64,000 bases of DNA from Desulfolutivibrio sulfoxidireducens. GTDB lineage: Bacteria > Desulfobacterota > Desulfovibrionia > Desulfovibrionales > Desulfovibrionaceae. The position numbers and the translations under genes were made by a program. A model generated the notes under the pieces. That model ran no database searches, was not told the origin of the DNA, and worked only from the letters and a program-made list of their open reading frames with translations. The DNA lies in NCBI RefSeq assembly GCF_013376475.1, contig NZ_CP045508.1, forward strand, positions 62,001 through 126,000, written 5' to 3'. Below, piece after piece: positions 7,146-35,497 of this stretch. Within the stretch, counting starts at the first letter, position 1, and each line of letters opens with the position of its first letter.

Positions 7146-8651
7146 ATGGCCAGGCTTTTACTGATCGACGATGACCCGTTTTTTCGCGAGACCATCGGCC
7201 GGGTACTGGACCGCATGGGGCACGAGCCGCTTTTCGCGGCCACGCTGGAGGAGGGCCGGTCCCTTTTATGGGCCGAGAGGCCGGACGTGGTCTTTTTGGA
7301 CCTGCGTCTGCCCGACGGGTACGGGCTGTCGCTTATGTCCGAACTCCGGCAGGGGGCGGACTGCCCAGAGGTGATCATCGTCACCGGCGAGGAGGATCCC
7401 GAGGGCGCGGAACTGGCCATCAAAAGCGGGGCCTGGGACTACCTGCAAAAGCCGGTGACCCAGGCCTCCCTGGCCCTGCCCCTGGTTCGGGCGCTGGAGT
7501 ACCGGGCCCAGAAGGCCGCCAAGCGGCCCAGGGCTGTGCTTAAACGCGAGGGCATCGTGGGGGTGAGCCGGGCCATCGAGTTCTGCCTGGAGCAGGTGGC
7601 CCAGGCCGCTGACTCCGATGCCGGGGTGCTGGTCACGGGCGAGACCGGCACAGGCAAGGAGCTTTTCGCCAGGGCCATTCACGCCAATTCGCCACGGGTG
7701 AACAGCAACTTCGTGGTGGTGGACTGCGCGGCCCTGCCCGAGACGCTGGTGGAAAGCGTGCTGTTCGGCCACGTCAAGGGGGCGTTTACCGGCGCGGACC
7801 GGGATCGGGACGGGCTTTTCCGACTGGCCGACGGCGGGACGCTTTTTTTGGACGAGATCGGCGAGTTGTCCCCGGCCATTCAAAAGGTGTTTCTGCGGGT
7901 GCTCCAGGACGGCCGCTTTCGGGCGGTCGGGGCCAAGCACGAGTCTCAGAGCGATTTTAGGCTGGTGGCGGCCACCAACCGCGATCTGGGGATCATGGCC
8001 GAGCGGGGCGGTTTCCGGGACGATCTGCTCTACCGCTTGAAAACCATGGTCATTTCCCTGCCGCCCCTGCGCGAGCGGCCCGAGGACATCAAGCCCCTGG
8101 CCATCCACTACATGAACCGGCTGTGCGAGCGCTACCGCATCCCCACCAAGGGGTTTTCCGAGGAGTTTTTCATGGCCCTGGCCGCCCATCCCTGGCCGGG
8201 CAACGTTCGCGAGCTGTTCAACACCCTGGAGCGCATGCTCCTGCAGCACCGGGACCAGCCGGTCCTGTATCCCATGCACCTTCCGGACGACATCCGGATC
8301 CGGGCCATCCGGGCCGGGTCCTCGGCCCGGGGCGGCCCGGGGCGATCACGGGAGGCGCTTGCGGGCGAAACTTGCCAGACCCCGAGCCAGGGGGCGGCGG
8401 GGTCCCCGGCCGTCGGGGAGGACGCCCCGGGCATGGGGTCCGGTGCGGTCGCGGCCCCTTGCCGGGCTTTGGGGCCCGTGGACGAGTGGAAAAAATATCG
8501 TCGCCGGGCTCTTGAGGAGGCCGAGCACCGATATCTGCGGGAACTGATGGAGGAGACGGGAGGCAATGTGTCCCGGGCCTCGGCGGTCTCGGGGCTGTCC
8601 CCGTCGCGAATGTATGATTTGCTTCGCAAGTATGGGCTGCCCACGCGGTAG
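7146..8651 (+). CDS. Sigma54-dependent response regulator, NtrC family (orphan)
   Basis: A 501-residue activator with receiver, AAA+ and DNA-binding parts. The receiver (residues 1-120) has the acidic pair in LLIDDDPF and the phosphate acceptor in VVFLDLRLP. The AAA+ core has Walker A GETGTGKE, the sigma54-contact loop GAFTGA and Walker B LFLDEIGE. The C-terminus is a Fis-type helix-turn-helix ([20 protein letters not shown]). A low-complexity linker rich in Gly, Ala and Pro separates core and DNA-binding domain. No kinase gene is adjacent. A sigma54-like promoter and a possible enhancer palindrome lie immediately downstream, which suggests a local target. Confidence 0.92.
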
Positions 8652-8795
8652 GGCGGTCCTTTTTCTTGGGAAAATCGAGGGAAAATTCAGGAATAGTCCA
8701 TTTTTCCCGTAGGACGAGAAAGATGGCTGATGCAGCCTGAAAAGAAATCGCCTTGATATTTAAGGAGAATATTTTTCTGGCGGAAAACCTCAGAC

Positions 8796-8811
8796 TGGTA
8801 TGCTTCTTGGA
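8796..8811 (+). promoter_or_regulatory. Sigma54-like promoter
   Basis: TGGTATG, four bases, TTGGA matches the -24/-12 pattern (TGGYRYR-N4-TTGCW) except for GG in place of GC at -12. The predicted start is about 8821-8823, exactly the 5' foot of the small-RNA hairpin. A 5+5 palindrome (GGCTG-ATG-CAGCC, 8725-8737) sits about 90 bases upstream, a usual enhancer distance. A TATAAA box at 8813-8818 would give nearly the same start with sigma70, but its -35 is poor. Confidence 0.33.
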
Positions 8812-8820
8812 TTATAAAAT

Positions 8821-8903
8821 AGTAGAGCAGACAATACCTCCCTATTGTTCTGACCTCTCCTTCAACTCCTGCGCGGGGGCCTTCACGGCCCCCCACTTTT
8901 TTT
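8821..8903 (+). ncRNA. Candidate small RNA with CCUCCC loop
   Basis: About 83 nt between the predicted start and an intrinsic terminator. A first hairpin pairs 8828-8836 with 8843-8852 (nine pairs, one bulged T) and displays CCTCCC in a six-base loop. An unpaired pyrimidine-rich stretch with CCTCTCC (about 8854-8860) follows. CCTCC-type loops can pair with Shine-Dalgarno sequences and are typical of trans-acting regulatory RNAs. The alternative is a leader/attenuator of the downstream K+ transporter gene, which starts 76 bases past the terminator. There is no sizeable open frame inside. Confidence 0.4.
8875..8903 (+). terminator. Intrinsic terminator
   Basis: GGGGGCC (8875-8881) pairs with GGCCCCC (8887-8893) around the loop TTCAC. 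Three bases later a run of seven T (8897-8903) follows. It lies 220 bases beyond the regulator stop codon and before trkH, so it ends either the candidate small RNA or read-through from the regulator gene. Confidence 0.6.
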
Positions 8904-8978
8904 GGGGACGTCTCCCGTGAGGGACTATGTTTCCGGTCCGACCTGGGGTAAGGTCCTCCAGCCCAAAGCGCCCACGCC

Positions 8979-10340
8979 ATGCCCACCAAAAAGCTCCTCT
9001 CGCCGCTGGCCCTGCCCATCTACGTGTTTGCCGCCGCCATCCTCGCCGGAGCGGCCCTGCTGCGCAGTCCCGCAAGCCACGCCGGCCCCACGGTTCCCTT
9101 CCTGGACGCCCTTTTCACCGCCACCTCGGCCACCTGCGTCACCGGCCTTGTCGTGGTGGATACGGGCTCGGCCTTCACCCCCTTCGGCCAGGGCGTCATT
9201 CTCCTGCTCATCCAGCTCGGGGGCCTGGGTATTATGACCTACGCCAGCCTGTTTTTTTATCTGTGGCGGCGTCGGGTCTCGCTCACCGACCACATTGCCG
9301 TGGGCCAGAGCCTGCTGCAGGACCCGTCCTTCCACCTGGGCCATTTCCTGTTGCGGGTGGTGGCCAGCGTGGCGGTCATCGAGGCCTTGGGCGCGCTTCT
9401 GCTGTACCTCATGGACCCGGTGGGCTTTTCCCCCTTCTCGGCCGTGTTCCACTCGATTTCGGCCTTTTGCAACGCGGGGTTCGGTCTTCTCCCGGACAAC
9501 CTCATGCGCTATCGGGGCCATGTCGGGGTGAACCTGGTGATCATGGCCCTTATCGTCCTTGGGGGGCTGGGGTTTACCGTCATCGTGGAACTCTACCGCC
9601 TTTCCCGGCAGCGGTTGCGCCCTCGCGCGCGGCTGGTTCCCTGGCGGGGCCTGAGTTGGTATTCCCGGACGGTCCTTTCCACCTCCGCCTTCCTGATCGT
9701 GGCCGGGGCGGCCCTGCTGTTCCTGGGGGAATACGCCCTCTCGACGTGGACAGACTGGGCGGATGCCGCCCTGGCCGCCATGTTCCAGTCCGTGACCTGC
9801 CGTACCGCCGGGTTCAACACCGTGGATATCGGCCGTATGGGCGAGGCCTCGCTGGGGATCATGATCCTGCTCATGTTCATCGGCGGTTCCCCGGGGTCCT
9901 GCGCCGGAGGGATCAAGACCACCACCTTCCGGGTCCTGGCGGCCTTTGGCCGGGCCCAGATGCGCGGCGGCAGGCAGGCCGTGATCGGGCGGTTCGCCGT
10001 GGACGACGCCACCCTGAACCGGGCCGTGACCCTGACCATCTTCGCCATGGGCATCGTGCTTGTTTCGCTCCTGGTCCTGTGCTTTACCGAGGGAGCCACC
10101 CAGGCCCACCACCTGGCCCCGGGACGGTTTCTGGATATCCTGTTCGAGGTGGTCTCGGCGTTCGGCACTGTGGGCCTGTCCACCGGGCTGACTCCCAATC
10201 TGACGCCCGCCGGGAAGATCGTGGTGATCGGGCTGATGTTCGTGGGGCGGCTCGGGCCCATTGTGTTTTTGTCCGTGCTCCAGGGGTTTCAGGAGCGGCC
10301 GCGGTACCAGTGGCCGGAACAGGGCATGCTCATCGGCTAG
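8979..10340 (+). CDS. TrkH/KtrB-family K+ uptake membrane subunit
   Basis: A 453-residue inner-membrane protein with the four-fold M1-P-M2 repeat of the TrkH/KtrB superfamily. Selectivity-filter regions are recognisable by their spacing: TSATCVTGLVVVDTG near residue 50, FCNAGFGLLPDN near residue 165, CRTAGFNTVD near residue 272 and FGTVGLSTGLTPN near residue 397. Length and lack of extra helices are closer to KtrB than to E. coli TrkH. A TrkA-type cytoplasmic gating subunit follows after a 122-base gap. The gap contains GC-rich inverted repeats but no T-tailed terminator. Confidence 0.9.
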   Translation: MPTKKLLSPLALPIYVFAAAILAGAALLRSPASHAGPTVPFLDALFTATSATCVTGLVVVDTGSAFTPFGQGVILLLIQLGGLGIMTYASLFFYLWRRRVSLTDHIAVGQSLLQDPSFHLGHFLLRVVASVAVIEALGALLLYLMDPVGFSPFSAVFHSISAFCNAGFGLLPDNLMRYRGHVGVNLVIMALIVLGGLGFTVIVELYRLSRQRLRPRARLVPWRGLSWYSRTVLSTSAFLIVAGAALLFLGEYALSTWTDWADAALAAMFQSVTCRTAGFNTVDIGRMGEASLGIMILLMFIGGSPGSCAGGIKTTTFRVLAAFGRAQMRGGRQAVIGRFAVDDATLNRAVTLTIFAMGIVLVSLLVLCFTEGATQAHHLAPGRFLDILFEVVSAFGTVGLSTGLTPNLTPAGKIVVIGLMFVGRLGPIVFLSVLQGFQERPRYQWPEQGMLIG

Positions 10341-34161: not shown

Positions 34162-34369
34162 GCCGACCTCCTTGGGAATGGGAAGAAAAGCGTCCGGCGA
34201 TGATGCCGATAGCTTTGGCACCTACTCCAAACGACCGGGCTTGTCATGTCCGGGGGGGGGCCGGAGACCTGCTCGAACTCGGGAACAAATCGGAATTGCG
34301 CGATTTCAGAAGGCTTGGTATCGGAAAGACGAAATTCGGGAGGGGGAGGTCTGATACGAGGAGGCGGCC

Positions 34370-35497
34370 ATGTCCCATGCGGACCGGGCCGAAATACTGG
34401 TCGTCGACGACATGCCGGGCAATGTGCGCGTTTTGGCCCATCTCCTCGAATCCGAGGACCTGGAGGTCGTCACGGCCCATTCCGGGAAGCAGGCCCTGGA
34501 ACTGGCGTGCCGCCACGATTTCGCCCTGGCCATGGTGGATGTGGCCATGCCCGGCATGGATGGCTTCGAGACGGCCGCCCGGCTTCGGGAACTGCCCGGG
34601 TTCCGCCATGTGCCGGTGATTTTCATGACGACCCTTTGCGCGGCCCGGGACCAGGTCTTTCAGGGCTACGAGGCCGGGGCCGTGGATTATCTGGTCAAAC
34701 CCGTGGAGCCCGCGGTGCTGCGCAACAAGGTCCGTGTCTTCGTGGAACAGCACCGGGTGCGAAAGACGTTGGAGATGCGGGTGGCCGAGCGCGTGGAAGA
34801 CCTCAGGGAAGCCAACGCCAGGCTTCTGGCCGAGGTCCGGGAGCGGCAAAAGGTTGAGGCCAGGCTGCGCGAGGCCCTGGCGGAAAAGGAGAGTCTGCTC
34901 GCGGAGATCCACCACCGGGTCAAAAACAACCTCCAGATCGTCTCCAGCCTCACGGACATGGTCAGCCGGCGCATCCAGGACCCCGAGGCCCGGGCCATCT
35001 GTCTCGACCTTCAGGCCAAGATTCACGGCATGGGGCTCATCCACACCGAACTCTACCGGAGCGGCAACATCGGACGCATCGACATCGCGGCCTACGGCCG
35101 CACGCTGTTTTTCCAACTGGCCAAGATGTACGAGGCCGATGGCATCGAACCGGTCTTCGATCTCGACGAGGTGCTCTTGCCCCTGGACAAGGCCGTGCCC
35201 TGCGGGCTGATCCTCAATGAATTATTGAGCAACGTCTTCAAGCATGCCTATCCCAAGGGCGGCCGGGGCCAGGTGGATATCCGCATCGGCCGCTGCGGAC
35301 CGCGCACCGCGGTCATCTCCATCCGCGACCACGGCCGGGGGCTGCCAGAGGAGGTGGATGGGCGCGGGACCACGACCTTCGGTTTGCGACTTATACGGGA
35401 TACGGTAAAACGCCAGTTGTGCGGAACCCTGCGAATGGATAGGGGGAAGGGAACGGCGGTTGCCGTGGAGTTTCAAGTCGCGGAGGTGTCGTCATGA
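34370..35497 (+). CDS. Receiver-HisKA_2 sensor kinase (first of pair)
   Basis: A 375-residue soluble protein. Residues 1-125 form a receiver (ILVVDDMPGN, acceptor Asp in LAMVDVAMPGMDG, Lys in DYLVKPVEP). A coiled-coil linker (RVAERVEDLREANARLLAEV) leads to a HisKA_2 phosphorylation helix with the histidine in LLAEIHHRVKNNLQIVSSL near residue 183, then an HATPase_c domain (LILNELLSNVFKHAYP, GRGLPEE). Kinases with an N-terminal receiver are usually controlled by another kinase. The gene overlaps the next, related one by 4 bases. A weak promoter (TTGCGC-N17-TATCGG, 34296-34324) lies upstream. Confidence 0.88.
   Translation: MSHADRAEILVVDDMPGNVRVLAHLLESEDLEVVTAHSGKQALELACRHDFALAMVDVAMPGMDGFETAARLRELPGFRHVPVIFMTTLCAARDQVFQGYEAGAVDYLVKPVEPAVLRNKVRVFVEQHRVRKTLEMRVAERVEDLREANARLLAEVRERQKVEARLREALAEKESLLAEIHHRVKNNLQIVSSLTDMVSRRIQDPEARAICLDLQAKIHGMGLIHTELYRSGNIGRIDIAAYGRTLFFQLAKMYEADGIEPVFDLDEVLLPLDKAVPCGLILNELLSNVFKHAYPKGGRGQVDIRIGRCGPRTAVISIRDHGRGLPEEVDGRGTTTFGLRLIRDTVKRQLCGTLRMDRGKGTAVAVEFQVAEVSS

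Follow-up and report, generated by a model that had tools for sequence, protein, structure and literature searches.

GlmY and GlmZ, together with GlrR, represent a system in which a sigma54-driven small RNA is encoded near a regulator gene. The arrangement of a small RNA gene beside that of a sigma54 response regulator has already been described, judging from the accessible parts of the reports on Dv_sRNA2, pxr and Qrr. In Desulfovibrio vulgaris, the sigma54 response regulators DVU0679 and DVU0653 have the RNA gene downstream as their mapped target, and the function of Dv_sRNA2 is given as unknown in the available text (PMC3333781, PMC4641369). In Myxococcus, the pxr gene lies in the gap 3' of the sigma54 response regulator gene nla19 and has a sigma54 promoter of its own (PMC5568312). 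In Vibrio, LuxO, another such regulator, adjoins and activates Qrr1 (PMC10162802).

The locus described here was found in a window of 64,000 nucleotides from Desulfolutivibrio sulfoxidireducens, positions 62001-126000 of a 4.16-Mb genome in a single contig. Judging from the comparison with related genomes, positions 8822-8903 of the forward strand, which lie in the gap separating the genes of a regulator and of a potassium transporter, are a genuine gene for a short regulatory RNA and are conserved. The neighbouring regulator probably activates this gene, and the sequence of the RNA suggests that it probably blocks ribosome binding on other messages. A preliminary description of the window had recognised the layout of an RNA gene in this 180-base gap, an observation that our analysis confirms.

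The locus resembles the two D. vulgaris pairs, which belong to the same family by name, in that the RNA gene lies 3' of the gene of a sigma54 response regulator. The activation motif is GAFTGA in the regulator of the window (7146-8651) and in DVU0653, and GAYTGS in DVU0679, the D. vulgaris loci being compared by their published description only. The D. vulgaris RNAs are likewise known to us by description; in 288 family genomes, the accepted matches of our covariance model of the RNA are confined to three genera. pxr is set apart by description, as a 108-nt RNA with a predicted triple stem-loop, beside a predicted NADH dehydrogenase gene (PMC5568312), and LuxO and Qrr1, unlike the present pair, are in opposite orientation (PMC10162802). 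The regulator reaches the cut-off of none of the 25 models listed among 92 NCBIfam models, including LuxO (287 bits, cut-off 800), GlrR (303, cut-off 763) and NtrC (308, cut-off 559). The preliminary description had likened the layout to GlmY/GlmZ loci while holding the RNA itself to be unrelated to them. The second part stands, as the RNA has no GlmY or GlmZ match in Rfam, but the DVU0679/DVU0653, pxr/nla19 and LuxO/Qrr pairs are closer in layout.

Architecture and conservation of the RNA gene

With the -12 position at 8810, transcription is predicted to start at 8822 (+1), and the T run extends to 8903. We infer from this spacing a transcript of about 82 nt, close to the 83 nt proposed earlier with an exact spacing. 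In order, it would contain a CCUCCC-loop hairpin, a linker rich in pyrimidines and an intrinsic terminator. The 5' hairpin, AGAG-CAG-ACAATA / TATTGT-T-CTG-AC-CTCT (8824-8858, +), begins next to the predicted start, in keeping with the initial placement of its foot there, and its loop CCTCCC is at 8837-8842. The conserved linker GACCTCTCCTTCAACTCCTGCGC (8852-8874, +) carries a second anti-Shine-Dalgarno stretch, CCTCTCC (8854-8860), the CTC of which is partly paired in the outer stem, and is the probable seed of the RNA. The terminator detected by the terminator scan (8875-8903, +) has a stem with seven G-C pairs (8875-8893) and a T7 run (8897-8903). All the elements named in the preliminary description, namely a palindrome, a -24/-12 element, the hairpin and its loop, CCTCTCC and the T7 run, are present, with positions correct to within a base. 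The predicted fold of 8820-8904 is better than those of 200 out of 200 dinucleotide shuffles (z -4.27).

When 99 genomes, the window's own included, were searched at the DNA level, 27 had matches at E<=0.1. The strong matches beyond the genome itself are in two genomes of the same genus, followed by G027 and G033, the remainder being short. In the two same-genus genomes, the match runs from the -24 element at 8796 to the terminator (94% and 91%). Via orthologues of the regulator, the same RNA was found in Desulfovibrionaceae MAG Ess09-06, Desulfovibrio sp. DV, S. aerotolerans and a Solidesulfovibrio MAG. A covariance model built from seven sequences and searched against the 288 family genomes yielded 21 matches at E<=0.01, of which 18, those four included, are real on reading; the other three (L130-L132) were dropped as chance terminators. 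The 18 RNA-bearing genomes represent the window's genus (3/3), its sister genus Solidesulfovibrio (14/14) and the genus of G033 (1/1). With its strict filters and 16 scored candidates per genome, this search may miss diverged copies of the RNA elsewhere.

The preliminary description had proposed a short RNA and expected its stem-loop to be conserved in Desulfovibrionaceae, with the CCTCCC loop and compensatory stem changes. This reading, with a stand-alone RNA, is supported by the 18 of 288 genomes that share the RNA, by the loop, kept in 17 of the 18 homologues and lost in G033, and by double changes in the inner stem. In the linker, TCTCCTTCA, CTCC and GCGC are invariant in all 18, the diverged G033 copy included, and the RNA motif UCUCCUUCA-N-CUCC is likewise present throughout (18/18). 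In the homologues, the linker is followed by a G+C-rich stem and a T-rich tail.

Alignment A4 has 18 rows, corresponding to 14 distinct sequences. Eleven stem pairs were written by hand, leaving out those that adjoin an alignment gap. In the inner six, every cell is paired in each of the 14 distinct sequences, and three of these pairs have changed on both sides, C-G/U-A in five sequences, A-U/G-C in five and A-U/G-C in one. Over all pair cells, 96.1% are paired, versus 29-66% when the partners are slid. The covariation score is 0.285 for a shuffle mean of 0.183, a value reached in 0/500 shuffles; the same holds for the paired percentage and for the number of double-change cells. There is no excess over shuffles in the number of pairs with double changes (122/500 at least as high) or in further pair types (499/500), and the outer five pairs have no double changes in this alignment. 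When nine sequences, including that of the window, were folded singly, the CCUCCC hairpin formed in eight, G033 having no such loop, and the outer stem was different or absent in some of these folds.

Rfam 15 gives no match at the gathering threshold over the whole window. With a threshold of E<=10 in 8640-8990, there are four sub-threshold matches, none to a plausible family and none to GlmY or GlmZ. The literature search found no published description of this RNA, as judged from its results alone. We conclude that the RNA family represented by 8822-8903 is real and conserved. It is matched neither in Rfam nor in the literature search results, and adds to the families without an Rfam 15 match.

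Promoter, upstream element and regulator

The proposed -24/-12-like element has the conservation of a sigma54-type promoter. The sequence CTGGTATG-CTTC-TTGGAT at 8795-8812 contains GG at 8797-8798 and at 8809-8810, in a GG-N10-GG arrangement; the promoter itself, TGGTATG-CTTC-TTGGAT (8796-8812, +), has G8810 as its -12 base. The pattern TGG[CT][AC][CT]G-N4-TTG is found in register upstream of the RNA in all 18 homologues, and RpoN is present in the genome. The -12 part is TTGG in 16 of the 18, TTGA in G303 and TTGC in G033. Compared with the published Desulfovibrionales consensus, tGGcacg/tTGCt (PMC4641369, available in part), the -12 base thus differs in 17 of 18 RNA promoters, G in 16 and A in one, which makes G at -12 a conserved deviation. 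This GG for GC had initially been regarded as the weak point of the promoter and turns out to be a conserved variant. The RNA promoters therefore offer a conserved exception to the sigma54 -12 consensus, unlike the promoters of a companion receiver gene described below, which have C (TGC) at that position.

TTTTTNCGTAAT and TTCCTGTTTTACCGTAA recur in the regions upstream of the RNA, commonly separated by about 20 bp and forming in some genomes the near-palindrome TCCTGTTTTACcGTAAAACAGGA. With a degenerate pattern, written after viewing the sequences, at least one such enhancer-like site is present in 18/18 upstream regions; the degenerate copy of the window, AGTCCATTTTTCCCGTAGGACGA, is at 8695-8717 (+). 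The strict 17-mer TTCCTGTTTTACCGTAA with up to two mismatches has 28 matches in 14 of the 18 genomes and none in the window's genus (G000, G001, G002). Of these, 11 precede the RNA, as is expected since the pattern was derived from those regions, 13 precede a gene for a stand-alone receiver, and four precede neither. Four of the 24 matches at the RNA or the receiver gene correspond to two palindromes of G306 read on both strands. The reversed pattern used as a control has 19 matches in the 18 genomes, eight of them in G033. As for the palindrome GGCTG-ATG-CAGCC, it is present at 8725-8737 as first described, but its sequence is not maintained even in the two other genomes of the genus, and we rejected it as an operator.

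The gene directly upstream (7146-8651, +) encodes a response regulator with a receiver, a sigma54-activation domain and a Fis-type helix-turn-helix according to Pfam, and with a GAFTGA motif; it is the presumed activator of the RNA. Among the 288 genomes, its close orthologues (at least 582 bits, 69-100% identity over the matched part) occur in exactly the 18 that carry the RNA, and the next best score beyond them is 511 bits (53%). The regulator gene is adjacent to and upstream of the RNA gene in seven of the 18, at about 3-7 kb in seven, at 161 kb in G313 and on another contig in G306, G308 and G312, so that the co-occurrence holds even where the two genes are apart. As the 18 genomes make up three complete genera of the set searched, this co-occurrence counts as one clade-level association.

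In agreement with the initial report of a sigma54 activator without a kinase partner, no conserved kinase was found, either among the open reading frames around the locus in five relatives or by following one kinase through the 18 genomes. That kinase, a hybrid with HisKA, HATPase and receiver domains, has its gene next to the RNA on the upstream side in only four genomes, all of the S. magneticus type (G027, G307, G308, G309; L140:8233-10743). Near-full-length relatives are present in just six of the 18 genomes, with 90-100% in those four and 56% in G306 and G313, and it was therefore rejected as a conserved cognate partner. Together, the putative activator, the enhancer-like element, the promoter, the RNA and the companion receiver represent a complete and testable regulatory unit in sulfate reducers.

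In N. liaohensis and two Desulfovibrio MAGs (L074, L068, L089), the gene of a related regulator with about 52% identity has a sequence TGGCACA-CTTC-TTGTT on its 3' side. These loci perhaps harbour another regulator-RNA pair. In L074, the activation motif of the related regulator is GAFTSA.

Mode of action and alternative readings

The reading that we favour, and hold to be likely from the comparative evidence, is that of a trans-acting anti-Shine-Dalgarno small RNA controlled by the adjacent activator. An unlinked kinase would phosphorylate the response regulator, which would then bind sites of the TTCC-TGTTTT-ACCGTAA type about 110-165 bp upstream and drive sigma54 RNA polymerase at the TGGYAYG-N4-TTGG promoter. 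The CCUCCC loop and the pyrimidine-rich linker would pair with purine-rich Shine-Dalgarno regions, thereby lowering the translation of the target mRNAs. C-rich seeds predicted to be unpaired are found in the loop (17/18) and in the linker (18/18). In this respect, the RNA resembles NfeR1 (alpha-r14) and the RsaA/UCCC RNAs, whose anti-Shine-Dalgarno or C-rich unpaired motifs mask ribosome-binding sites, as the available text has it (PMC10746234, PMC3961350). However, NfeR1 and RsaA have other sequences, belong to other organisms and are transcribed from promoters of another type, under the control of LsrB/NtrC and Sigma B, according to the same sources. The pairing would apparently operate without Hfq, for which there is no match in the genome; the control of this search was positive in 5/14 genomes. 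The locus thus provides a handle on how a bacterium without an Hfq match may use anti-Shine-Dalgarno RNAs.

The downstream gene, trkH (8979-10340, +; Pfam PF02386), for potassium uptake, raises the question of whether the element might be a 5' leader or attenuator of a trkH-trkA operon, with the sigma54 promoter driving trk and the hairpins gating read-through. trkH is indeed directly 3' of the RNA in 11 of the 18 loci, and in G033 (L146 8379-11396) the diverged, loop-less RNA is followed by a different Trk pair, in the order trkA, trkH. However, six of the 18 loci keep the RNA, its loop and its linker without an adjoining trk gene: obg comes next in G305, G310 and G314, and neither trk nor obg is found within the 16 kb read in G027, G307 and G309. 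The persistence of the RNA in these loci makes it hardly a trkH leader. Furthermore, a sigma70-like motif, read by eye and presumably acting as a promoter, is close 5' of the trkH ATG in the trk-bearing loci of the sister genus. We therefore regard the leader as unlikely and trkH as a neighbour that is probably transcribed separately. On its own account, the G033 Trk pair hints at a link between the RNA locus and potassium uptake. In the region corresponding to 8904-8979, trkH of the sister genus seems to have almost no untranslated leader, with the promoter-like motif near its ATG (by eye).

That the RNA is a decoy or mimics the 3' end of 16S, binding a protein or the ribosome instead of pairing with specific mRNAs, appears quite unlikely to us, although two anti-Shine-Dalgarno-like stretches and the lack of an Hfq match would suit such a role. 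So would the little target specificity that emerged from duplex energies calculated for 184 start regions, taken from the window and from 19 other loci, with a crude start-codon picker that included spurious open reading frames. Purine-rich Shine-Dalgarno regions score well in general, and these energies therefore do not discriminate targets. We found nothing directly contrary to a decoy, but the conservation of the linker exceeds that of a generic pyrimidine tract, which we read as favouring specific pairing. A small protein encoded by the transcript is very improbable. In some relatives, e.g. G311, a frame across the hairpin begins with an ATG, but this ATG is absent from window-type sequences, there is no shared start codon and the stem changes preserve pairing; the small open reading frame was rejected on these grounds.

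Candidate targets and the companion receiver gene

For the trans-acting RNA that we favour, targets were sought by searching the 18 genomes for complements of the seed and of the loop, and no target conserved in all of them was found. A seed 13-mer with up to one mismatch has 149 matches, versus 90 for the reversed-pattern control. Forty of these stretches were read without revealing a conserved Shine-Dalgarno site; eight have a possible open reading frame start 15-29 nt downstream, and only one is placed like a Shine-Dalgarno sequence, at a G033 gene that we take to be YbaB-like.

Two patterns placed before an ATG gave 37 matches for AGGGAGGTA-N1-8-ATG (control 9) and 74 for AGGAGAGGT-N2-9-ATG (control 34), some of the latter corresponding to the RNA's own antisense strand. 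AGGGAGGTA is at the start region of one gene, presumably QmoB-like, in 15 of the 18 genomes as read (L256:1490-1520 and homologues), and the same string, unread, occurs in G306 and G315. This string complements the RNA loop. However, it runs into the 3' end of the preceding gene, and G033, whose RNA has no such loop, keeps it as well. AGGAGAGGT was read in four sister-genus genomes at the gene of a 2Fe-2S thioredoxin-like subunit (Pfam PF01257), which we assume to be HndA-like; strings similar to it, unread, occur in others, and none was seen in the window's genus. No NCBIfam model names the QmoB-like or the HndA-like protein above its cut-off.

The companion gene preceded by the enhancer-like element (L311, L295, L310 and other loci) encodes a stand-alone receiver of about 122 residues (Pfam PF00072). 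All 14 genomes of the sister genus have a GG-N10-GC-type promoter 42-45 nt 5' of its ATG. As the element precedes both genes in that genus, the RNA and the receiver may form one small regulon there. The window's genus also has best matches to the receiver, that of G000 (C1:1754367-1754726) with 54% identity, and such a promoter pattern accompanies them in G002 and G001 but is lacking in G000. G033 has no match to the receiver at E<=1e-20.

The receiver mRNA is also a candidate target of the RNA, and the most suggestive one. Its ATG is preceded by AGGGAGG, which complements the loop CCUCCCU perfectly, in 10 of 14 genomes of the sister genus and in none of three in the window's genus; for comparison, 5 of 184 sampled start regions have this string. 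These counts include related, non-independent sequences. It is tempting to speculate, though we rate this as doubtful, that the regulator activates both the RNA and the receiver, that the RNA loop represses the receiver mRNA and that the receiver competes for the same phosphate, thereby closing a two-gene circuit. If true, this would represent an incoherent feed-forward loop that tunes a response regulator lacking a linked kinase, and in which the conserved G at -12 sets the RNA promoter apart from that of the receiver.

Feedback of the RNA on the regulator mRNA was considered in six loci (that of the window, G309, G027, G308 and two of G307), and no purine-rich complement was seen by eye in the S. 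magneticus-type start regions. The regulator's own start region in the window has a duplex energy of -28.2, a value as low or lower being obtained for 28 of the 184 sampled regions. Among the sampled window genes, the best duplex (-39.4 kcal/mol, structure ignored) is at 34330-34390, the start region of a receiver-domain gene.
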